Shown piece by piece: positions 11,637-36,551 of a DNA stretch of 36,551 nt. Location: the NCBI GenBank assembly GCA_017609885.1, contig JAFCDB010000003.1:1-36551 (forward strand). Reading direction: 5' to 3'. This DNA comes from Candidatus Pacearchaeota archaeon (lineage in GTDB: Archaea; Nanobdellota; Nanobdellia; Pacearchaeales; GW2011-AR1). The notes under the pieces were generated by a model. It saw only the letters and a list, made by a program, of their open reading frames with translations, made no database searches and was not told where the DNA came from. Position 1 is the first letter of the stretch. Each line of letters starts with the position of its first letter. The translations under genes were made by a program, and so were the position numbers.

Positions 11637-12470
11637 TTAACTCATCAAATCATCAATTGGAGATTTAATTTTTTTAATTTCTTCTTGAGAAACGTGTGCA
11701 TATAATTCTGTAGTAGAGATTGAACTGTGACCTAACAATACCTGAATGTATCTTAAATCAACACCATTTTCCAAAAGGTGAGTTGCGAAACTATGACGCA
11801 AAGTATGTGGATGGATTGATTTTTGTATTCCTGATTTTCCTGCGATTTTTTGGACGATTTTTTGAATGTTTCTTGTTGACAAATTTCCATTTGGACCTGA
11901 AAAAAGATATTCTTGGTTTAGCTCATTTTGTTTTTTTACTTGTTTTTCAAGGGATTTGTTTAGGAATTCTGGGATATTGAAGATTCTGTCTTTGCGTCCT
12001 TTTGCCTGTCTGACAAATCCGATTTTTTCGTTGAATTTTAGGTCGTTTGTTTTAAGGTTTGTGAGTTCTGAGACTCGCAAGCCACAAGAGTAAAGTAGGG
12101 AAATCATAAGTTTGCTTTTTTTTGTTTGACAATTTTTTAATAAAATCTTTATTTCGTCTTTTGTTAAAACTGTTGGAATTCTTTTTTCTCTTTTTGGGCG
12201 TTTTATTGTTATTGTTAGATCTTTTTTTAGGATGTTTGTGAAGGAATATTTTATTGAGGCGAGGAAGAGGATTACTGATATTGCTGCGCTGTCTGTGAGT
12301 TTTTCTGACATGTAATATTTTATGTCGTCTTCTGAAATTTTTTCTGGAGATTTTTTTGTGAAGTTTAGGAGATTTTGATTGCATCGAATGTAATTTTTTA
12401 TTGTGTATGGGGAAGATTTTGAGATTTTTAATTCTATTTCAAGTTTTTTTAGGAATTCTTGGTTGTTCAT
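11637..12470 (-). CDS. xerA: Tyrosine recombinase, XerA-like
   Basis: 'SLLYSCGLRVSELTNL', 'HPHTLRHSFATHLLENGVDLRYIQVLLGHSSISTTELYAHVS' (R...HxxR...Y). Confidence 0.9.
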   Translation of the reverse strand: MNNQEFLKKLEIELKISKSSPYTIKNYIRCNQNLLNFTKKSPEKISEDDIKYYMSEKLTDSAAISVILFLASIKYSFTNILKKDLTITIKRPKREKRIPTVLTKDEIKILLKNCQTKKSKLMISLLYSCGLRVSELTNLKTNDLKFNEKIGFVRQAKGRKDRIFNIPEFLNKSLEKQVKKQNELNQEYLFSGPNGNLSTRNIQKIVQKIAGKSGIQKSIHPHTLRHSFATHLLENGVDLRYIQVLLGHSSISTTELYAHVSQEEIKKIKSPIDDLMS

Positions 12471-13132
12471 TTTAGTTTTTTAGATAGTTGTTTAAACAGC
12501 TGTTTGTTTTCTTTATATAGAATGGTTTGCATTCCTAATTTTTTTGCAGGGAGGATGTTCCATTTTTGGTTGTCGATAAACAAGCAGTTTTTCGCAGGGA
12601 CGTTAAGCTTTTTTAAGCAAAGTTTGTAGATTTTTGGATTTGGTTTGCGCATTCCGACGTCGCAGGAGACGACAACAGCGTCGAATTTTTTTGTGAGTTT
12701 TGGTTTTATTAATGCTTTTTTTGAAAGATGCCATTGGTCTGAGAGAATTGCTATTTTGTAACCTTGTTTTTTTAATTTTAGGGCTAACTTGAATAAGGGC
12801 TTATTTTCTTTGAATTGTTTTTTGTAAAGTTTGATTGCAAGTCTTTCGAATTTTTTTTCTGAGATATTAACATTTTTTGAGATTGTTTTTATGACTTTTT
12901 TTTCTGTTAATTCTCCTGTTATGGATTTTGCGTATGTTGTGTCGATTGCGTCGAACCATTGGTCTAGTGAAATTCCTAATTTTTTTGAGATTGAGTTGTG
13001 GAATCCTAAAAGTTTGTGAAGATGTTTTGGGTGGGAGGAATATTTTCCTAGTTCAAGGACTCCGCCAATGTCAAAGATTATTGCTTTGATTTTTCTTTCC
13101 TCTTTTTTCACTTTCTTTTCCCCTTTTTTCAT
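12467..13132 (-). CDS. HAD-family hydrolase
   Basis: 'IIFDIGGVLELG', 'KIAILSDQW', 'MRKPNPKIYKLCLKKLNVPAKNCLFIDNQKWNILPAKKLGM' (catalytic motif I second Asp replaced). Confidence 0.85.
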   Translation of the reverse strand: MKKGEKKVKKEERKIKAIIFDIGGVLELGKYSSHPKHLHKLLGFHNSISKKLGISLDQWFDAIDTTYAKSITGELTEKKVIKTISKNVNISEKKFERLAIKLYKKQFKENKPLFKLALKLKKQGYKIAILSDQWHLSKKALIKPKLTKKFDAVVVSCDVGMRKPNPKIYKLCLKKLNVPAKNCLFIDNQKWNILPAKKLGMQTILYKENKQLFKQLSKKLK

Positions 13133-14588: not shown

Positions 14589-14796
14589 TTTATCAACGGT
14601 AAACAAAAAACAAACAACAGCAAACAGCTGTTTATAGATGTTGTTTGCTGTTTAAACAGCTGTTTATTTCAAACAACAGGGTGTTTATAGGTTTTTTTTT
14701 GAGTGTTTTGACACATTCTTAGACACATTCTTAGACAGATAATTTAAGGATTTTAAGAATTTCTTGTTAAAAAATTAGTGATTTGTCGACGGCAAA
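14589..14796. promoter_or_regulatory. Multi-repeat control region upstream of the 14845 wHTH gene
   Basis: AAACAGCTGTTT at 14622 and 14654 with GCTGTTTAAACAGC at 14647; GACACATTCTTA at 14710 and 14722; TTTATCAACGGTAAA at 14589 and TTTGTCGACGGCAAA at 14782. Confidence 0.7.
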
Positions 14797-14844
14797 TGAA
14801 GGTTGGAGCAAAAGATTTATAAAGAAAGGGGAATAATTTAGAGT

Positions 14845-15459
14845 ATGTTTGGTTGGTTTGGAAGAAAAAAAGAGATAGAATTGATAAAAGAAGAGGTTCA
14901 TGATTCTTTTGGAAAAGTTAAAGAAGATATAGACAAGCTTGGACAATGGGTTGGACATTTCAATAATAAACATGATTCACATGAAAACGAGTTTTTAGGG
15001 ATTAAAAAGGATTTGTCGTTGGTAAAAAAAGAGATTGAAGAATTAAAAGATATGATTTCTATATTTGGAAATGACATGAGTAAACAGATGTTCAAAACAA
15101 ACAAACAGCTGTTTAAGAAACAAACAGCTGTTGATGCTGTTCAAACAGGTGTGCAAACAGCTGTTCAAACAGTGAATTTTGGTGGTTTTTCGAATTTGAG
15201 TGTAACTGAGCGTGCAATTGTTTGGGTGTTAGCAAATAGTGAATTGAAATTAAGTTATGAAGATCTAGCATCTATGTTAGGAAAAACAACTTCAACTATT
15301 CGTGGGCAAATAAATAGGATACAACATAAAAGTGAAGGGTTAGTAGAAATGTATGTTGAAAAAAATGGAAAGAAAAGGATTTATATGTCTGAAGAAATAA
15401 AAGAAAAAATACTAAAAAATGTGAAAGTGAAAGTCAGAGAAAAAAGAGAGGAAGATTAA
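14845..15459 (+). CDS. Coiled-coil + repeat linker + C-terminal winged-helix protein
   Basis: N-term heptad-like region, linker KQLFKKQTAVDAVQTGVQTAVQTV, C-term 'LSVTERAIVWVLANSELKLSYEDLASMLGKTTSTIRGQINRI' HTH. Confidence 0.7.
   Translation: MFGWFGRKKEIELIKEEVHDSFGKVKEDIDKLGQWVGHFNNKHDSHENEFLGIKKDLSLVKKEIEELKDMISIFGNDMSKQMFKTNKQLFKKQTAVDAVQTGVQTAVQTVNFGGFSNLSVTERAIVWVLANSELKLSYEDLASMLGKTTSTIRGQINRIQHKSEGLVEMYVEKNGKKRIYMSEEIKEKILKNVKVKVREKREED
15103..15173 (+). repeat. AAACAGCTGTT-type repeats within wHTH gene
   Basis: Copies at 15103 (AAACAGCTGTTT), 15122, 15143 (AAACAGGTGT), 15155, partial 15168. Confidence 0.85.
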
Positions 15460-15718
15460 GTAAAAATCATTTGAAAAAGGAAGGAAAGTGAGAGTTAAAT
15501 TAATAAAAATTTAGTGGAAAAGTGATAAAAGAGATGTTGTGAAAAGGTAAAAGAGAGAGTTAAAGTAAAAAGGAGAATTAAATTGTAGTTTGTAAAAAAT
15601 AAAAAAGAAAGTAAAAAATAAAATTTTGTAAAGGAAGTAGTTAGTAATATCTAAGAAAAAATAAAGAAAAATAAGAGTTTTCTATAGTTGTAAAAGTTAT
15701 TCTGTTAACCGAAAATAA

Positions 15719-16519
15719 TTATAGTTCCCGAAGAGATAATAAAGTGTTTAAGGTTGCTAATCTCTTTAAACTATCTGAAATTCTAAGGAGAATGCGTTTA
15801 TTATTGATTTTTTCTTTTATTAATGGAAAACCTTTGTTAATAATTCTTTTAATGTAATCTCTAATTGAACTTTCCGAAAGATTTAATTGTTGGGATAAAA
15901 GAGAATAATCAACGAGAGTTCCTTGTTCTTCAAATTGATATATTGATGATAAAACCAACATTTCTTGATTAGTTAAACGTTTGATTTTTAATCTAAGATC
16001 TTTTTTTATATTATCTAATTGGTTTAATATAATTGAAGGATTTGGCTGTTGATTTTGAAGTTGTTGATTTTGAGGCGAATTTTGACTAATTTGAGGTGTT
16101 TTTGGTGTTTTGACCCCATAATTTCCTGTCGAAGTGTCTGTCGAAGTGTCTGTCTGTCTGTCTGTCGAAGAATGTGTCGAAGCCCCATGGTTTCCAGTGG
16201 AAAGGGGTATATTTGAAGGTTTAAGACTTTCTAAAGGAACATTATGTGTCGAAGAATGTGTCGAATTTTTGAGATGTGTCGAATTTATGTGTCGAAGTGT
16301 CGAAGTTTCAGGATTATGTGTCGAAGAATGTGTCGAATTTTGAATTTCGGGGATTTTTTGAGACTTAGAGAGGTTTTTTGTTAAAAGATCATTTACTTTT
16401 ACTAATTCGTAGAGAGAATTTTGTATTTCGTGAAGTTCTTTTTTTATAATTTCAAATTCTAAATTTAACTGATTAATATCTGATTTAACTTTTTGAAATG
16501 CCTCTTTTATTTGATCCAT
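15719..16519 (-). CDS. Coiled-coil + Ser/Thr/His repeat linker + C-terminal winged-helix protein
   Basis: Linker STHSSTHNPETSTLRHINSTHLKNSTHSSTHN...; C-term 'LTNQEMLVLSSIYQFEEQGTLVDYSLLSQQLNLSESSIRDYIKRI' HTH. Confidence 0.7.
   Translation of the reverse strand: MDQIKEAFQKVKSDINQLNLEFEIIKKELHEIQNSLYELVKVNDLLTKNLSKSQKIPEIQNSTHSSTHNPETSTLRHINSTHLKNSTHSSTHNVPLESLKPSNIPLSTGNHGASTHSSTDRQTDTSTDTSTGNYGVKTPKTPQISQNSPQNQQLQNQQPNPSIILNQLDNIKKDLRLKIKRLTNQEMLVLSSIYQFEEQGTLVDYSLLSQQLNLSESSIRDYIKRIINKGFPLIKEKINNKRILLRISDSLKRLATLNTLLSLREL
16127..16337 (-). repeat. About 11 copies of TTCGACA(CAT) word, with a GACA tetranucleotide run
   Basis: TGTCGAA (+ strand) repeated across the linker-coding region; 5 x TGTC at 16147-16166. 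Confidence 0.85.
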
Positions 16520-16569: not shown

Positions 16570-16842
16570 TTATTTGTAATTTTGAGAGTAGGCTTGATGG
16601 GTTTTATTTGATAATCTCCAACGAGTTCTTTTTAGATAATTATCTCCTAAGGAATTTTTGTGAATTGAGATGATTAGATTTTTATTTTTTAGTTCTTCTA
16701 GAAGAGATTTGGTGAATTCATGATCTCGGATTATTTCATTAGCAATTTGTGATGTGAAGAGGGGATTTGGAAATTTGTCGAAGAGAACTGAGAGAATTTG
16801 CTCTGAGATTCTTTGCTTTTTTTTCTCTGATAGTTTTGACAT
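16570..16842 (-). CDS. Hypothetical HTH-like protein, 90 aa
   Basis: 'ISEQILSVLFDKFPNPLFTSQIANEIIRDHEFTKSLLEELKNKNLI' resembles a winged helix. Confidence 0.5.
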   Translation of the reverse strand: MSKLSEKKKQRISEQILSVLFDKFPNPLFTSQIANEIIRDHEFTKSLLEELKNKNLIISIHKNSLGDNYLKRTRWRLSNKTHQAYSQNYK

Positions 16843-17639: not shown

Positions 17640-18395
17640 CTTTTCTGTGATTTTGTCTATATATAAGTTATTAAATTAAAGATATTTTGGAAATTTAGTT
17701 GTTAATTTTATTTTAGAGTTTAATTATATTTATTTAAGAATTTAATTATTTGTTTGAGAGTGTAGGAATTTAAATTGATTTATTTTTAAGTGATTATGCG
17801 AACTTTATTTTGTAATTTTATTAATTTTCATGTTTTCTTGATTATATGAACTTCTATTTATGAAATCTTTTGTTTTGAGTGACCCTATGATTTCGTTTGG
17901 AAAAGTTTATAAAAGAAGTAAGAATTTAATTTTTTATTTTTATTTATAAATATTTATATTATATATAATATATATTATAAAATATATATTATATTATATT
18001 ATATTAATGTGTTTTATTTTAATTATTTGAAAATAATTAAAATTTTTATAATTTATTATATTTAATTGTGTTAAATTAATCCTTAATTGTATTAAATTGA
18101 TTTTTAGCCATGTTTTTACAAATTTAAATTGATTTTTAGTTATTCTTTGGAAATTATATTTTTATATTCTCAAAAGTAGAGAGAATTTTTGAATTTATGA
18201 ATTTCCAAACGAAATCAAGGTGTAGGGTTTTTTAAATTTTTAAAATGAATTTTTTTTGATTTGAGGAATTTCCTAATAAAATTTTTTTGAGATTTATTTT
18301 TTCCAAATGAAATTAAGGTGTAGTTAAATACTATGCAAAAGGTTATACAAAAGTTTATAAAAAATGTTTTTTATTTTTTTATATTGAATTGAGAG
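17640..18395. other. Predicted chromosomal replication origin (oriC) region
   Basis: ~750 bp AT-rich non-coding DNA next to orc1/cdc6, with ORB-like repeats at 17882-17904 (inverted), 18202-18228 and 18299-18323. Confidence 0.75.
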
Positions 18396-19616
18396 GTGAA
18401 AATGGAAGAAGTTGGAAAAAAGATTGATAAGATTTTTGATTCGTTTATGGAGAATAATTTGTTTAAGGATAAGTTTGTTTTGCAGGCGAGTTACACTCCT
18501 GAGACAATCCCTCATCGTGATGAGCAGATTGAGCAGATAGCTTTGATACTTGCTCCTGTTCTTCGAGGAGAGAGGACGAGCAATTTATTTGTTTATGGGA
18601 AGACAGGGAGTGGAAAAACACTTTCAGTGCAGTGTGTTAGAAATGAACTTTTGAAAAGAAATAATTTGGAAAAGAATAATTTAGTTATTGAGTATATTAA
18701 TTGCAAACTGAAGAAAGTTAGTGATACAGAATATCGGATTTTGGCAGAACTGATAAAAAAACTTGGAGGTAGCGTCCCTGCGACTGGACTTCCAACAGAT
18801 CAGGTTTATAATAAATTTATAGAACTTATTGATAATGAGAAGAAATTGATTGTTATAATTTTTGATGAGATTGACCATGCTGTTAATAAAATTTCTGATA
18901 ATTTTTTGTATAATCTGACGAGGTTGAATTCTGAACTTTCAAAAAGCCAGATTTGTATTGTGGGAATTTCAAATAATCTGACTTTTTTAGATGATTTAGA
19001 TCCGAGGGTAAAGAGTTCTTTAAGTGAAGAAGAGTTGGTTTTTCCGCCGTATGGTGCTTTGCAGTTGCGAGATATTTTAAAGGAGAGAGCTGATAAAGCA
19101 TTTAATGAAGGGGTTTTGGATGAAGGTGTTATTTCAAAATGCGCTGCTTTTGCAGCTCGAGAACATGGAGATGCACGCAGAGCATTGGATTTGTTGAGGA
19201 TTGCAGGGGAAATTGCAGAAAGAGATAATATGAAAAAAGTTTCAGAGGCAAATATTGATTTGGCAAATGAGAAAATTGAAAAAGATAAGATTTTAGATAT
19301 TGTAAAAACAGAGCCGAAGCAATTTCAGCTTGTTCTTCTTTCGATAATTGATCTTGTTCAGAAAAATAAATTAGAGGAGATTTTTACTGGAGATGTTTAT
19401 AATACCTATCAGATTTTATGCGAGAAGACAAGAACTGATATTTTGACGCAGAGAAGGGTTTCAGATATTTTGTCAGAGTTTGATATGATGGGGCTGATAA
19501 ATTCGAGTGTTATTTCAAAAGGGCGCCAAGGCAGAACAAGGAGAATTCGACTTTCAGTTCCTAAACAACTTTTTGGAAAAGTCAGGGATATTTTGAACGA
19601 CTCACTTAATATTTAA
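18396..19616 (+). CDS. cdc6: Orc1/Cdc6 replication initiator
   Basis: 'YTPETIPHRDEQIEQIALIL...LFVYGKTGSGKT', 'VIIFDEIDHA', C-term WH; likely start ATG 18402. Confidence 0.93.
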   Translation: MKMEEVGKKIDKIFDSFMENNLFKDKFVLQASYTPETIPHRDEQIEQIALILAPVLRGERTSNLFVYGKTGSGKTLSVQCVRNELLKRNNLEKNNLVIEYINCKLKKVSDTEYRILAELIKKLGGSVPATGLPTDQVYNKFIELIDNEKKLIVIIFDEIDHAVNKISDNFLYNLTRLNSELSKSQICIVGISNNLTFLDDLDPRVKSSLSEEELVFPPYGALQLRDILKERADKAFNEGVLDEGVISKCAAFAAREHGDARRALDLLRIAGEIAERDNMKKVSEANIDLANEKIEKDKILDIVKTEPKQFQLVLLSIIDLVQKNKLEEIFTGDVYNTYQILCEKTRTDILTQRRVSDILSEFDMMGLINSSVISKGRQGRTRRIRLSVPKQLFGKVRDILNDSLNI

Positions 19617-30830: not shown

Positions 30831-31028
30831 ATGAGCGAGTTATTAATAAGCCGATTAAAAAACTCTATTGGATTAGAGGGTATTGTTTATTTACTTAATG
30901 GTTTTAGATTTGAATGTAAAATTTTATCTTGTGATGATGATTTTTTAGAGATTTATGATATTAAAAAATCCCGAGTAAAAGTTATAAAAATTTCTGAAAT
31001 AAGCGAGGTGGATTTAAATGGATATTAA
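30831..31028 (+). CDS. Possible Sm/Hfq-fold small protein, 65 aa
   Basis: 'IGLEGIVYLLNGFRFECKILSCDDDFLEIYDIKKSRVKVIKISEISEVDL' resembles Sm1-like strand pattern; structural inference. Confidence 0.5.
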   Translation: MSELLISRLKNSIGLEGIVYLLNGFRFECKILSCDDDFLEIYDIKKSRVKVIKISEISEVDLNGY

Positions 31029-31278
31029 AAAAATAAAAGATGAGCAAGAGAAAAAAATTTTAGAGGCGATTGATGAGTATGTTAAAGTTTTTGGTGATGA
31101 TTGTGATATTTATAGGCACGGCGGGAATTTTGACGATAGATTAACTAAACAAGATTTGAAAATTTTATTAAACACTGAAAAAAAAGTTTGTGAAATTCAA
31201 AAAGAAAATTCTGATAAAATTAAACTTAAAAAAATAAATTTGAAAGGAGTGCATATTTTGGTTTATAAAAATGGATGA
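31018..31278 (+). CDS. Hypothetical element protein, 86 aa
   Basis: ORF overlapping neighbours on both sides. Confidence 0.6.
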   Translation: MDIKKIKDEQEKKILEAIDEYVKVFGDDCDIYRHGGNFDDRLTKQDLKILLNTEKKVCEIQKENSDKIKLKKINLKGVHILVYKNG

Positions 31279-31699
31279 TAATAATTATAGCAGTAACGAG
31301 AATGTAGATTTTAGAGAAATTGTTTTAAGTTATATGCGTAGAGTTATGGAGTTGAATTTAAAGGTTATTCCGCAAGAACAGATTTTAGATTATGCTAAAT
31401 GTTATAAGCGTGCTGTAATGGGTTTAAGTGATATTCTATTACCTTTTTTTGATGATGAGATGAAAATAGTTTATGAGAAATTTTTAGATGAGTATGATTG
31501 GATGATGAGGGAAACCACAAAGAACGGCACAAAAGTAAGCGATATTAACGAGTATGCTAATGGAATTATGAAAGTTTTTAGAGGGTTGTTTAGGGAATTA
31601 AATAAACTTCTTAACAGAAATGATTATTTGAAGAGTAAGGTTTATGGTGAAACTAAAAACGAAGTCGTGCAAGAGCGCGAGGATGATGAGGAGTATTAA
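31271..31699 (+). CDS. Element paralog family member 1
   Basis: 'FREIVLSYMRRVMEL...LNRNDYLKSKVYGETKNEVVQEREDDEEY'. Confidence 0.75.
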   Translation: MDDNNYSSNENVDFREIVLSYMRRVMELNLKVIPQEQILDYAKCYKRAVMGLSDILLPFFDDEMKIVYEKFLDEYDWMMRETTKNGTKVSDINEYANGIMKVFRGLFRELNKLLNRNDYLKSKVYGETKNEVVQEREDDEEY

Positions 31700-31701
31700 A
31701 A

Positions 31702-32070
31702 ATGGAAAATCAAAATAATTTTATGGGGAATGAAAAGCTAGAATACGGACAGATTATTCTAGGGCATATTAAAGAAATTTTGAAAATAAGCAGATATGGT
31801 TTATTTGAACCCGAAATTTGTGTTAGATATCAAACAGCGATTTTAGTATTAGCTGACGCGTTGTATAATTATTATGATGATGAGATGAGAGAAAGCGAAC
31901 AAGAGTTTGATAGGTGTAAAAAATTACCAAAATATGAAAATAGTTTTGGACATTATAGAGAATTTTTTAGGGCGTTAATGGGATTGTTACAGCGAAATAA
32001 TTATTTGAAGAGTGTGGTTTATGGTGAGGATAGAGATGAGCTAGCACAAGAAGAGGGTGAAAATGATTAA
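31702..32070 (+). CDS. Element paralog family member 2
   Basis: 'EYGQIILGHIKEILKIS...LQRNNYLKSVVYGEDRDELAQEEGEND'. Confidence 0.75.
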   Translation: MENQNNFMGNEKLEYGQIILGHIKEILKISRYGLFEPEICVRYQTAILVLADALYNYYDDEMRESEQEFDRCKKLPKYENSFGHYREFFRALMGLLQRNNYLKSVVYGEDRDELAQEEGEND

Positions 32071-32102
32071 ATTAAATTTTAGCGAAAGCGGGAGTAACAT
32101 AA

Positions 32103-32411
32103 ATGAAAAAAGGTTTTGTAAAAGATAAACAAGTCGGTGACGTGTTTAAGGATAAACAAGTTAGTGACGAGGAATATTGGAAACAATACGCGCCTAGTGA
32201 TGAGGATAATTTTAGTATGCAAAACCACGAAATAAGTTTAGACGTTGTTTGTAAATTTAAAGGGATTAATGGCGGTGTAATCTATGAAACAAAAGAAACA
32301 GCGATTAACTGCAATTTACCCGATTTAGAAACGTGGTTTAGAAATCTTAAAAAAGTTATTCGTATGCTAGACGAAACTATTTCAGATAAAGAAGTCGGTG
32401 AGGGTTTTTAA
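32103..32411 (+). CDS. Hypothetical element protein, 102 aa, duplicated KDKQV N-terminus
   Basis: MKKGFVKDKQVGDVFKDKQVSDEEYW... Confidence 0.6.
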   Translation: MKKGFVKDKQVGDVFKDKQVSDEEYWKQYAPSDEDNFSMQNHEISLDVVCKFKGINGGVIYETKETAINCNLPDLETWFRNLKKVIRMLDETISDKEVGEGF

Positions 32412-32435
32412 CTTCACCACTTCTATTTTTTAAAA

Positions 32436-32942
32436 ATGGAAACACAAAATACTTATACACACGATAAGCTAGAATTTAGACAGATTGTTCTAGGGCATAT
32501 TAAAAAAATTTTAGAAATTAGCAGTAGCGAGTTAAGGGATAAAACAATAATTAGAAATCACGGAAATTATAGCGAAACTATTGAGAATGAAGATACAAGA
32601 CAAAGCTATATGCAGGCGATAGAAAATTTAGCTTATATTTTAATGCCTTATTTTGATGAGGAGATGTTACAAGTTTATGAAAGGTGTGTTAGAATTATTA
32701 ACGCTTTCGGATATGAGGTTAAAAGAATTTTGAAAAAAACTTATGAGAGAATTAAAGAGGATACGGGGAAAGATGATTTAGGAAATGCTTTTGTTTTGGA
32801 AATGAAATTAAAATATGCAAAGAAATTATTTATTGCGTTAAATATGTTATTGAAAAGAAATGATTATTTGAAGAGTGCCGTTTATGGTGAGGATAGAGAT
32901 GAGTTAGGTGTTGAGGATGATAATGAGGGGGATGAGGAATAA
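32436..32942 (+). CDS. Element paralog family member 3
   Basis: 'EFRQIVLGHIKKILEIS...LKRNDYLKSAVYGEDRDELGVEDDNEGDEE'. Confidence 0.75.
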   Translation: METQNTYTHDKLEFRQIVLGHIKKILEISSSELRDKTIIRNHGNYSETIENEDTRQSYMQAIENLAYILMPYFDEEMLQVYERCVRIINAFGYEVKRILKKTYERIKEDTGKDDLGNAFVLEMKLKYAKKLFIALNMLLKRNDYLKSAVYGEDRDELGVEDDNEGDEE

Positions 32943-33871
32943 TGGCTAATGCGGTTTATCTTTATCGCGGGAAAGCAAAACTTAATAGTTGGGCGCGTTG
33001 GATGGTTAGCCGAACTATGAAACAAAATAAGAATAATCTTATTTCGGTTGTTGGAAAAACGGGGAGTGGAAAAACATTAAGTGCTATTTCAATTTGTGAG
33101 ATAATGAGTAAATTAGATGGTGTGCCTTTTAATGTTAAAGAACACGTAGTTTTTACATTAAAAGAATTAATGGATTTAATTAATAGCGGAAAGTTAAGGC
33201 GAGGTAGTAAAATAGTTTGTGACGAATTTCAGTGTAGCATATCCGCGCGTGAATTTCAAAGCAAAGCAAATAAAGTTTTCAATTATGTTTTAAGCACGTT
33301 TAGACATTTAAATTTAACTTTATTCTTTTGCACGCCATTTGAAACCTTATTAGATAAGAACACTAGAAAGTTATTTCACGCGCGCTTTGAAACTATGAGT
33401 ATAAATAAAAATAATCAAACGTGCAGAATTAAACCGCGATTTTTAGAGTATAGCGATTTTAAAGCCGAGCCATATAGAAAACAAATGTATATTTTCTTTA
33501 AGGATGATAAGGGTAATAATAAATCGCGTCAGTTGTTTTGGTGGGATATCCCGCGCCCGAGTAAAGAGAATGAGGAGATTTATGAGAAAATGAAAGTTGA
33601 TTTTACTACAAGATTAAATAAAAACATTTCGTTAGAGCTAGCTAATGAGAGAAGTTTAGCGGATGAACATACTGAAAAGATAGTAGATAGAAAACCATTA
33701 ACAGATAAGCAAGATAAGGTTATGAAAGTGTTAGCTAACATAAAAGAGAGTAATAGATATGAGGTTGCTAGTAAGAAGTTAGGTATTTCTTTAAGCTCAA
33801 TACATAAAAACAAGAAGTTAGCAGAAAAGAAAGGTTACACATTAGAGGAGTTTAAAGAAAATGATGATTAA
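32942..33871 (+). CDS. P-loop ATPase (Zot/packaging-ATPase-like) with C-terminal HTH
   Basis: Walker A 'VVGKTGSGKT', Walker B 'SKIVCDEFQ', 'FNYVLSTFRHLNLTLFFCTPFETLLDKNTRKLFHARFETM', C-term 'DKVMKVLANIKESNRYEVASKKLGISLSSIHKNKKLAEKKG'. Confidence 0.75.
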   Translation: MANAVYLYRGKAKLNSWARWMVSRTMKQNKNNLISVVGKTGSGKTLSAISICEIMSKLDGVPFNVKEHVVFTLKELMDLINSGKLRRGSKIVCDEFQCSISAREFQSKANKVFNYVLSTFRHLNLTLFFCTPFETLLDKNTRKLFHARFETMSINKNNQTCRIKPRFLEYSDFKAEPYRKQMYIFFKDDKGNNKSRQLFWWDIPRPSKENEEIYEKMKVDFTTRLNKNISLELANERSLADEHTEKIVDRKPLTDKQDKVMKVLANIKESNRYEVASKKLGISLSSIHKNKKLAEKKGYTLEEFKENDD

Positions 33872-33893
33872 AACTATTGATAGAGGTGTATAT

Positions 33894-33946
33894 GGCGAAA
33901 ATACTAGGGTTTTCGCCCTTTTTAGCCATATTTCGCCACTAAAAAG
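33894..33946 (+). other. Two abutting hairpins
   Basis: GGCGAAAA-TACTAGGG-TTTTCGCC (33894-33917) and CTTTTTAG-N13-CTAAAAAG (33918-33946). Confidence 0.75.
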
Positions 33947-34024
33947 CCCACGCTCGCCCATTAAATTAACTTATAAGGTGAGAAATTTTAACCATCATCA
34001 TAGTAAAATAGGGGTTGTGTTAGA

Positions 34025-34390
34025 ATGAAGATAAGAATACAAGACAGCAGTAAGTTTATTGATGTGGATATAGCACACCCTTATTTATTAGGTGATGTTA
34101 ATGTATATGAGCGAGAACTTAAACCAAAGATACAAGATGTTATAGATAGGGATAACTTAAAGTGTAGTGGTTGTGGAAAGCCATTAATTAATAGGGGTTG
34201 GATATGTGTTAATCACCGCCCGAAGAGTGCGCTTACTATGAAAGAAACTTATAGGGTTGAGGATAATAACACGGGCGAGGTTTATTGTGAGGGGGAGTTT
34301 GAGTTAAAAGATATGTGGGCTATGTTCTTATTCTGTTTTGATACCCGCGCAGATTGTATAAATAAATGGAAAGATAAGCGCCCAAAATGA
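34025..34390 (+). CDS. Zinc-finger-containing element protein, 121 aa
   Basis: 'LKCSGCGKPLINRGWICVNHRP'. Confidence 0.65.
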   Translation: MKIRIQDSSKFIDVDIAHPYLLGDVNVYERELKPKIQDVIDRDNLKCSGCGKPLINRGWICVNHRPKSALTMKETYRVEDNNTGEVYCEGEFELKDMWAMFLFCFDTRADCINKWKDKRPK

Positions 34391-34635
34391 AAAAAGATAT
34401 TGAAGGTATGAGCCGAGAAGAGTTAATTAAATTAATTAGTAATATGATTAATGAGCGCGAGTTTGGAATAAGCCCGATTAATAAAGTTAGTGTTTGTGAT
34501 GTTGAGGTTGCTAGTAGCATAGAGAGTTTAGATAGATGTAAGAAAGCCGTTAATGATTTGATTAAGACAAATAAAAAGTTTATCACATTAAGACAAAATA
34601 AAATTAAAGCTGATAGTTGGGGTTATTTTGGTTAA
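34387..34635 (+). CDS. Hypothetical element protein, 82 aa
   Basis: ORF overlapping previous stop (ATGA-type). Confidence 0.55.
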   Translation: MKKDIEGMSREELIKLISNMINEREFGISPINKVSVCDVEVASSIESLDRCKKAVNDLIKTNKKFITLRQNKIKADSWGYFG

Positions 34636-34644
34636 AAAATAAAT

Positions 34645-34681
34645 GTGTAATTTTGTGTAATAAAGTGTAATTTTGTTATAC
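34645..34681 (+). repeat. 10-bp-phased iteron-like repeats GTGTAA x3 plus GTTATAC
   Basis: GTGTAA at 34645, 34655, 34665, then GTTATAC at 34675. Confidence 0.75.
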
Positions 34682-34716
34682 TCACATTTAAAAGAAAGTT
34701 ATGATTAAAAAAATAA

Positions 34717-34766
34717 AGCCAAAGAGTTAAACTCTTCGGCTATCATTTCACGCTAACAAAATGATA
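34717..34766. other. Two adjoining hairpins upstream of the zinc-ribbon/primase/polymerase genes
   Basis: AGCCAAAGAGTT-A-AACTCTTCGGCT (34717-34741, one mismatch) and TATCATTT-N10-AAATGATA (34741-34766). Confidence 0.7.
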
Positions 34767-34997
34767 ATAGAAATATTGCAAATAAGATTAATAAAAGTAT
34801 GGGTGTGTTTAGCTGTTTGTTTGTTACTTAAAGATAGATGTATTAAAAGATGTTCTTGTTGTGGTTACGAGTTAGATGTTGAGGATTATTTTTTTAATAA
34901 TATTTGTGAGTGTTGCGGGGCTTCGCAGGGTTATGATAAAGAGTATTTTGAAAATTCTGATTTAAATTATAGGGGTGTAAAATGTTTAGAGATATAG
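34761..34997 (+). CDS. Small zinc-ribbon (CPCC-like) protein
   Basis: 'KRCSCCGYELDVEDYFFNNICECCGASQGYD'. Confidence 0.65.
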   Translation: MIIEILQIRLIKVWVCLAVCLLLKDRCIKRCSCCGYELDVEDYFFNNICECCGASQGYDKEYFENSDLNYRGVKCLEI

Positions 34998-35539
34998 AAT
35001 TATTTAAACCGAAGTTTGTGAGAACAGAAAGAGAAACTACTAATTATGAAACAGGCGTGGATTATAATGAGAATATTATTTTTGATTTTGTTAATGATGA
35101 TTATGTAGCTAGAAATAAAAAACTATATGGTGATTTAACACTTAAAGAATATTTGGATAAAATAGAAAGAGAGAAAGGTTTTGTTAGTTATCATATTTCT
35201 TTAAGAAGTGTAGATAATAAAAGAGCGCTGTTAGTTTTTGAAAGTGATAAAAAAGGTGGTGATGAGGTTATTAAAAAATTGACTAGGTTAGTTAGAGAGA
35301 AAGGTGTTAAATTTATTCTTAAAACAAGTGGAAATAGAAGTTTGCATTTAGTTATACCGATTATTGCAGAAACAGAAGAGGAGTATAATAGGCAGTGGTT
35401 AGGAGTATTTTATTTATTAGACGCAAGAGATAGAGAATTTATTGATGAGCAGTTAAATAAATTTTCGGGGCAGGTTAGAGGGTTTGAAAGTTTGCATTTG
35501 AAAACTTATAATAAAAGTGAGGTGTTAGAAAGTGGATAA
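34982..35539 (+). CDS. Archaeo-eukaryotic primase (AEP/PriS-like) catalytic protein
   Basis: 'RALLVFESDKKGGDEVIKKLTRLVREKGVKFILKTSGNRSLHLVIPI' aligns by eye to AEP motif I (DxD) - motif II (SxH); 'QVRGFESLHLKTYN' resembles RLPGSLHGKTG. Confidence 0.75.
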   Translation: MFRDIELFKPKFVRTERETTNYETGVDYNENIIFDFVNDDYVARNKKLYGDLTLKEYLDKIEREKGFVSYHISLRSVDNKRALLVFESDKKGGDEVIKKLTRLVREKGVKFILKTSGNRSLHLVIPIIAETEEEYNRQWLGVFYLLDARDREFIDEQLNKFSGQVRGFESLHLKTYNKSEVLESG

Positions 35540-36551
35540 TTTAGTTTTAAAAGATTTTGAAAATAACAAAAAGATAGTTGATACTTTTTCTTTAAATAAG
35601 AAATCGGCTTTAATTTCTAGGGCGGGTGATACTTCGGTTATGGGAAAAAGTAAAAACACCCGTTCTAGTTTTTTATTTGACAGCATAGAGTTAAACAGAC
35701 AAGAACAGATTTTAGAAATTGCTAGGAATTTAAAAAAAGGTGAGCGTGGTGTTTGCTTAACTTACATAGCTAGTAAGTTAAAAAAGAATGATGAGAATAA
35801 AAAGTTTTTTGAAAAAATAGTTAAAGCTATTAGAGATAAGCGAGAGTTTGATGTTAGTGAAGAGTTTAAGAAAGGTGTTAATATTTTTGAGAAAGGTTAC
35901 AGCAAAAAACTAGTAGAGAAAACAGAACACGGGCGAGGGATTGTTAAAGCGTTGTATGGCTATCAAAGAGAGATTTTAATTAAGAGAGGTATAAGCGAGG
36001 TTTGGGATGATTATTTAGGTAGGGTTAGTTTGATTGAAGATAAAGAAAAACGCGAGAGAAAAATAAAAGAGTGTGCAGACGCTAGGGCATTTTTAGACGA
36101 GAGAGGATTTTTAGAGTTTATACCCGACGCACGAAACGGAATACAAATATATCATAGTTTAAGATTAATGGAAAGTAGCGCGGGCTTGAAAATAACACGA
36201 GAGAATTATAACGTTATGGATTTAGGGAATAAAGAAGATATGATTAAAGGCGCGTTAGCTGAAAGTGGGCTTAATGATTTTAATGAGGAGTTGAAACAAG
36301 TTAATGAGATTGTTAAGCAAGAACTAAAAAGTAAAAATAAATTAGTTGAATTTAAACCCGAAATACCTAAACCCGCAAAAAATGATTATGGTGATTTTGG
36401 ATTAATGAATAAAGGAAATAAGAAATTTACAAAAATCTATTATGATATTGAAACAGATTATAAACAAGAGCCGTGTTTAGTTGGTGTTTATAATAAAGAT
36501 TTGAAGAGGATTATTTTAGCGCAAGTTGTTAAAGAGATTAGGTTAAAAGAG
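35532..36551 (+). CDS. Family B DNA polymerase-like protein, N-terminal extension plus start of exonuclease domain (truncated by window end)
   Basis: GTG start; open for 340 codons to window end; 'KFTKIYYDIETDYKQEPCLVGVYNKD' resembles PolB ExoI (DIE) motif. Not in supplied ORF list. Confidence 0.75.
   Translation, partial: MDNLVLKDFENNKKIVDTFSLNKKSALISRAGDTSVMGKSKNTRSSFLFDSIELNRQEQILEIARNLKKGERGVCLTYIASKLKKNDENKKFFEKIVKAIRDKREFDVSEEFKKGVNIFEKGYSKKLVEKTEHGRGIVKALYGYQREILIKRGISEVWDDYLGRVSLIEDKEKRERKIKECADARAFLDERGFLEFIPDARNGIQIYHSLRLMESSAGLKITRENYNVMDLGNKEDMIKGALAESGLNDFNEELKQVNEIVKQELKSKNKLVEFKPEIPKPAKNDYGDFGLMNKGNKKFTKIYYDIETDYKQEPCLVGVYNKDLKRIILAQVVKEIRLKE

Follow-up and report, generated by a model that had tools for sequence, protein, structure and literature searches.

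In phage lambda, the ori iterons lie in the linker region of the O gene, and placing an origin within the initiator gene is a known design in plasmids as well. In the RepA_N family, the linker of pSK41 Rep is encoded by DNA that carries the binding-site repeats, and the protein sequence derived from it is dispensable for replication (PMC5703833), while in repABC plasmids oriV lies inside repC, where silent changes abolish function (PMC3155836). For archaea, the common motif of the origin recognition box (ORB) has been published as TCCA[CG]T[TG]GAAA[TC][GA]AAGGGGT, and a published origin finder is confined to intergenic DNA (PMC4164010). At Sulfolobus origins, WhiP and UBP act as additional winged-helix or nucleoid proteins (PMC4010727, PMC12141716), and in vitro binding of single-stranded DNA is known for archaeal Orc1 (PMC8287685). 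The bacterial basal unwinding system (DnaA-box/DnaA-trio) consists of a dsDNA initiator box and then a short strand-specific repeat (PMC6669920). Searches of titles and abstracts retrieved nothing on point for DPANN, Pacearchaeota or Woesearchaeota origins or Cdc6, and no case of an ORB paired with a 4-nt array inside a coding stretch of a cellular chromosome turned up in a literature search of incomplete coverage.

Here, we analysed a window of 36,551 nt, i.e. positions 1-36,551 (forward strand) of contig JAFCDB010000003.1 of Candidatus Pacearchaeota archaeon (GCA_017609885.1; genome of about 750 kb). Gene A (14845..15459, + strand) and gene B (15719..16519, - strand) encode proteins which, as the preliminary description of this DNA had proposed, share one layout, i.e. 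helix, disordered linker and winged helix in both AlphaFold2 models. Protein A has a long N-terminal coiled-coil helix, a disordered linker (aa 78-111) and a C-terminal winged helix; protein B has an N-terminal helix (2-53), a long disordered linker (roughly 54-160) and a C-terminal winged helix (161-265). B is adjoined by gene C (16570..16842, -), which encodes a small winged-helix protein (Pfam and synteny) and has the orientation of B, adjacent to it, wherever it was detected. The orc1/cdc6 gene (18396..19616, +; Cdc6_C E=6e-28, Cdc6_lid E=1.2e-25; synteny) starts 1.9 kb past gene B and is followed by the genes for the small (DP1, from 19618) and large (DP2, from 22128) subunits of PolD. 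The earlier placement of the locus near oriC was supported, the locus lying at the putative oriC. Ribosomal-protein-like and RNA polymerase-subunit-like genes, read from the ORF list, are also present in the window, together with a Xer-type tyrosine recombinase gene (11637-12470), which lies near A in many loci. A run of ORFs at 30951-35560, comprising small related ORFs (31271, 31702, 32436), a P-loop ATPase-like ORF (32942) and a primase-like ORF (34982), resembles a mobile element.

The A-B pair was found as convergent neighbours in all 80 Pacearchaeota-type loci fetched (80/80), labelled mostly Pacearchaeota or Nanoarchaeota, and in most of them gene C comes next. Beyond A-B-C, a D-PRC-Cdc6-DP1-DP2 block was present in most loci with a long enough contig; in one locus (L118) this block is inverted and the A-B-C order intact. 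Gene A is conserved in 33/38 order-level relatives, homologs of gene B were detected in 133/194 phylum-sampled genomes, and the pair also occurs across the class in more diverged form.

Pfam returned only generic HTH matches for A, under cut-off, and Pfam scans of A and B gave no RepA_N domain; a search for viral relatives of A found none. Both the long helix of A and its hydrophobic N-terminal motif are conserved. The linker DNA of A is an array of ACANNTGT palindromes, its CAAACANNTGTY repeats encoding a peptide close to KQTAVxxVQTxVQTxVQT. In the window this array spans 15082..15166 (+), with AAACAGATGTTC at 15082, AAACAGCTGTTT at 15103, AAACAGCTGTTG at 15122, AAACAGGTGTG at 15143 and AAACAGCTGTTC at 15155; of the three copies of the first word previously reported inside A, the one at 15103 was exact, whereas those at 15122 (...GTTG) and 15155 (...GTTC) have one end mismatch each. 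The 8-mer ACA[GC][GC]TGT reached a density of 31.9/kb in A linkers versus 0.046/kb in the remaining 1.12 Mb (3.8/kb in the 300 bp upstream of A, 0.02/kb in B genes). Codon use in the linker is restricted (Gln CAA 216/223, Thr ACA 198/221, Val GTT or GTC 214/223), each far from that in the rest of A, and in 41/77 loci the palindrome word is read in two frames, so that it encodes distinct peptides (KQLF/KQVF and TAVQ). When up to 2 mismatches were allowed, AAACAGCTGTTT gave 13 matches in the window versus 3.8 expected, a number reached by 0/100 shuffles. Across the 750-kb genome, AAACAGCTGTT occurred at 9 distinct sites, 5 of them within 14622-15165, and is rare there; both words are specific to this locus. 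One extra exact AAACAGCTGTTT lies at 12494, inside an unrelated HAD gene where it provides KQLF codons, and was treated as a coincidence. Judging from these sequence patterns, the palindromes are most likely sites for the winged helix of A itself.

Upstream of A, we recovered at their reported places two exact copies of AAACAGCTGTTT (14622-14633 and 14654-14665) and the tandem of the second word (14710..14739, +), made of two exact copies of GACACATTCTTA (14710, 14722) and GACAGA. This tandem keeps a four-nucleotide (quartet) phase, CACA-TTCT-TAGA-CACA-TTCT-TAGA-CAGA, and shows inverted matches of 22-38 nt to repeats in the B linker. About two thirds of the loci (52/77) have GC-centred ACA[GC][GC]TGT copies in the 300 bp preceding A, at 3.1/kb versus 0.015/kb elsewhere (about 200x background). 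They are missing in the other 25/77, nearly all of which still have the words in the A linker, contrary to the expectation that promoter copies would be kept along with linkers; several class-level relatives lack them too. In one family (f52), the sequence immediately preceding A resembles xer coding DNA and the word cluster is absent. The TGTCC flank of the word was associated between linker and upstream region (Fisher P = 0.006), covariation of the centre dinucleotide between linker and upstream copies was not significant (P = 0.08-0.16), and a comparison of shared k-mers between own and swapped loci carried little information, as the whole order has these words in common. Upstream (operator) copies are common yet not obligatory, i.e. 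they are the dispensable part.

Protein B scored 24.7 bits against DnaD_N, below the cut-off of 27, and was therefore not assigned to this family; the model matched 14/25 members at E<=0.01, and generic HTH models matched more members, and better. Foldseek searches against PDB recovered the winged-helix fold of MarR/ArsR-like regulators, the best matches being MepR, AbfR2, SmtB and PefR, with low TM-scores and only part of the chain aligned. A specific PDB relative did not emerge from the fold search, which retrieved generic winged helices alone.

The B linker contains the ORB TTTCCACTGGAAACCATGGGG (16183..16203, -), which encodes STGNHG and is the only strict match in its own genome. It has the core and the G-string, with three differences from the published motif (C for G/A, T for A, C for final T); many B orthologs match that motif exactly, e.g. 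TTTCCACTGGAAATGAAGGGGTT, and so carry a box of the published type. By sequence, the B-linker box is an archaeal ORB and a predicted Orc1/Cdc6 site. A degenerate second ORB-like copy, CTTCGACAGGAAATTATGGGG (16114..16134, -; 3 mismatches), encodes STGNYGV, and further TCGACACA-type repeats occupy 16241..16341 (-), including two identical 29-mers (16241-16269 and 16313-16341). A comparable second STGN motif occurs in the B protein of another locus (L044). TTTCCANWGGAAANNNNGGGGTT translates to the linker peptide S(T/I/S/N)GNxGV, whose codons are frozen: Ser is TCC in 78/79 cases (146/1364 in the rest of B), Gly is GGG in 79/79 (63/321), Asp is GAC in 70/70 (267/896) and Val is GTT in 73/73 (245/508), with Fisher P from 1e-67 to 2e-21, values that overstate independence because the orthologs are related. 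At the unconstrained centre of the box the encoded residue is variable (T, I, S, N, R, K), and the codons listed for it all begin with A. The pattern ORB + TT had 18 matches in 38 genomes, never more than one per genome, 17 of them at B and 1 upstream of cdc6, versus 0 matches for the reversed control in the same genomes. The strict ORB in the B linker is usually the sole copy per genome, and a recognisable ORB is mostly absent from more distant B homologs.

The ORB adjoins an array of 4-nt units (16125..16182, -), CACA TTCT TCGA CAGA CAGA CAGA CAGA CACT TCGA CAGA CACT TCGA CAGG, whose far end bears the degenerate ORB-like copy. Over 103 B genes, a mean of 7.9 CA-quartets of 15 was counted versus 1.9 in 1847 control windows (control maximum 5), and self-identity of the array was 0.54-0.57 at lags 4, 8 and 12 and 0.24 at lag 3. 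Across 38 genomes, the (CAGA)n 15-mer matched at the A-B locus alone (23/23 matches). The letters of the quartet depend on the lineage: most of the order has CAGA, family f52 and a relative have CACT or CACG, and others have CAAT, CATT, CAAA or CATG/CAGA mixes. Since the 4-nt unit rotates through all reading frames, each variant yields a wholly different peptide (DRQT, HSLT, HART, QSIN, HSFI, QTNK); the CA phase is unchanged, and what is conserved is therefore the phase of the DNA, not the protein. A few B homologs have other tandem words beside the ORB instead of the array, e.g. of the GGTTATTCACTTCCT type (L254, L260). The second word, GACACATTCTTC, was present in the B linker as reported, with exact copies at 16167, 16251 and 16323 (-), and all its exact copies in the window lie upstream of A or in B. 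Taken alone with mismatches allowed, it was not above chance in the window (8 matches versus 6.8 expected), and it sits in quartet phase (CACA-TTCT-TCGA), i.e. it is a fragment of the array, so that we no longer favour the view of it as an operator for B that recurs in the A promoter. The two words are consequently not equivalent operators as once proposed: the first belongs to the A palindromes, the second to the array next to an Orc1/Cdc6-type box. The preliminary description had missed the ORB, the membership of the second word in the array and the nearby Orc1/Cdc6.

In several other families the A-linker word is CGTTCA/TGAACG, some with GTTCATGAAC, and it still clusters in A; in one locus (L196), 11/11 occurrences within 8 kb fall in A. 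Whether promoter and linker words still match where the word differs had been put forward as a check, and its outcome was mixed: of six such loci, three have matching upstream TTGAAC copies (L198, L200, L202) and the other three have none. The recognition helix of A reads TVRRH in relatives with the alternative word versus TIRGQ, a match that is not independent proof because word and helix lie in one gene. In three genomes (G119, G135, G196), A resembles the A of the window more than the A of G212, a neighbour in their family, B is closer to that of G212, and the word type goes with each gene; this tracking fits with A recognising its own word. Many class-level genomes (relatives of L193-L202, i.e. 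G111, G119, G130, G135 and others) have a second, diverged Cdc6 away from A-B.

A classical-looking oriC lies upstream of cdc6 (17883..18320), where inverted ORB-like repeats (TTTCCAAACGAAATCA...) at 17883 (-), 18202 (+) and 18300 (+) surround an AT-rich stretch; similar inverted boxes precede cdc6 in many relatives. The classical arrangement (AT-rich stretch and inverted ORBs by cdc6) was not found at A-B, which has one strict ORB plus a degenerate direct copy, the inverted pair being upstream of cdc6. Where class-level relatives have both on one contig, some 6-16 kb separate the main Cdc6 from A-B. The distance between A-B and cdc6 is about 10 and 16 kb in two single-contig genomes, and in one genome the two are on separate contigs. 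Composition skew was weak: one genome had its keto minimum 1.8 kb from A and its GC minimum 72 kb away, another had a GC minimum 13 kb away that was not significant, and the signal is ambiguous between A-B and the cdc6-adjacent oriC. Because of the oriC candidate upstream of cdc6, we make no claim that replication starts inside A-B.

As judged from frozen codons, the use of two frames and the retained phase, and since the linkers are disordered in the models, the linker DNA of A and B is demonstrably under selection as DNA, in line with the earlier suggestion that linker-coding DNA doubles as cis-acting DNA. We consider it likely that the two linker DNAs make up a bipartite element that acts in cis within the replication origin region of the chromosome; these sequences are best read as an auxiliary origin, or an element that controls the origin, housed within two genes. 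The B linker would offer an ORB to Orc1/Cdc6 and, directly after it, a strand-specific array of CA-headed 4-nt repeats. Orc1/Cdc6 would seat on the ORB, A would bind its own linker palindromes via its winged helix, with the long helix possibly promoting dimers or higher assemblies, and A and B would assemble on the flanking linker arrays. Such a complex might license, repress or position initiation, either at the oriC upstream of cdc6 or a few kb away from it; the quartet array may act in unwinding or in binding B, and the upstream copies, where present, could let A (perhaps the B/Orc1 system too) adjust A expression. As the linkers are disordered, their peptide sequence would be free and set by the DNA. 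More tentatively, and with a minor chance of being right, Orc1/Cdc6 (or B) might engage single-stranded DNA in 4-nt steps from the ORB, as a counterpart of the DnaA-box/DnaA-trio system hidden in coding sequence class-wide.

Several other explanations were weighed against this bipartite origin element. Possible, though not what we expect, is an origin-control site at which the B ORB and the A array bind Orc1/Cdc6 and A and thereby limit or time the cdc6-adjacent origin. Titration-type control is familiar from datA-type sites, and the existence of a separate oriC-like region upstream of cdc6, up to 10-16 kb from the A-B element, would suit it, but there is usually one strict ORB and no cluster, and we know of no counterpart of the 4-nt array among titration sites. 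A negative-acting downstream ORB cluster is known in haloarchaea (Haloarcula oriC2, PMC4010727). We regard as unlikely a centromere-like or nucleoid-anchoring locus, in which A would nucleate on its linker array near oriC and segregate or fold the chromosome; the clustering of palindromes near oriC, the conserved long helix and N-terminal hydrophobic motif of A and the persistence of linker sites where upstream copies are missing agree with it, and yet the ORB and the quartet array in B are left unexplained. Simple auto- or cross-regulation of transcription, exerted via operators upstream of and within the genes and the first option of the preliminary description, appears quite unlikely. The density of the upstream copies and the TGTCC association speak for it, but the linker sites persist in loci without upstream copies, including family f52 with its xer-like upstream sequence, and pure autoregulation is therefore insufficient. 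Moreover, the window copies lie well 5' of a TATA-like box near 14816, the centre dinucleotides do not correlate significantly and the ORB is not accounted for.

Two explanations that dispense with any function of the DNA fare worse. Constraint on the protein, with the peptides QTAV, STGNxGV and TDRQT mattering and the DNA words a by-product, is largely refuted and very improbable: the motifs are conserved as peptides too within the order, but the codons are frozen, one word is read in two frames, lineage peptides become wholly different while the 4-nt phase is kept, noncoding copies exist and the linkers are disordered in the models. Tetranucleotide repeats are prone to expand by slippage, but a functionless microsatellite is barely credible for an array that always lies beside the ORB at one locus, accounts for every (CAGA)n 15-mer match and retains its CA phase where degenerate.

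Set against the systems described, A and B are formally like plasmid Rep genes with their own ori. As in RepA_N, an initiator-type DNA-binding protein has repeats in its central linker-coding DNA (here sites predicted by sequence), but RepA_N concerns one gene of bacterial plasmids with its own Rep boxes, and the present case two genes of an archaeal chromosome with a box of the Orc1/Cdc6 type. A putative origin element within coding sequence recalls repABC, which has no iterons, unlike the ORB plus arrays seen here. Repeats in coding DNA between two domains are likewise a trait of lambda O, that of a phage using bacterial host machinery. The ORB with its G-string and the synteny with cdc6 resemble an archaeal oriC by orc1/cdc6 (PMC4164010, PMC4010727), but this ORB is single, inside a conserved gene and joined to a 4-nt array. 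The order of box and then short strand-specific repeat parallels DnaA-box/DnaA-trio; however, the repeat is of 4 nt and lacks the trinucleotide period of the 3-nt trio (3'-GAT-5'), as the lag-3 value indicates, so it is not a DnaA-trio, the initiator differs and unwinding or ssDNA binding is conjectural here. As additional proteins proposed at an archaeal origin region, A and B are comparable to WhiP and UBP by role, without established homology, and differ from them in carrying sites in their own genes.

The start and control of replication in DPANN archaea are essentially uncharted. The present data suggest that part of the replication-control machinery is written within protein-coding sequence, and origin finders restricted to intergenic DNA would overlook a class-wide chromosomal ORB located within a gene. 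An array with changing letters and constant phase offers a way to ask whether archaeal initiators recognise single-stranded DNA at a fixed step size, and disordered linkers may be a store of regulatory DNA in cellular chromosomes.
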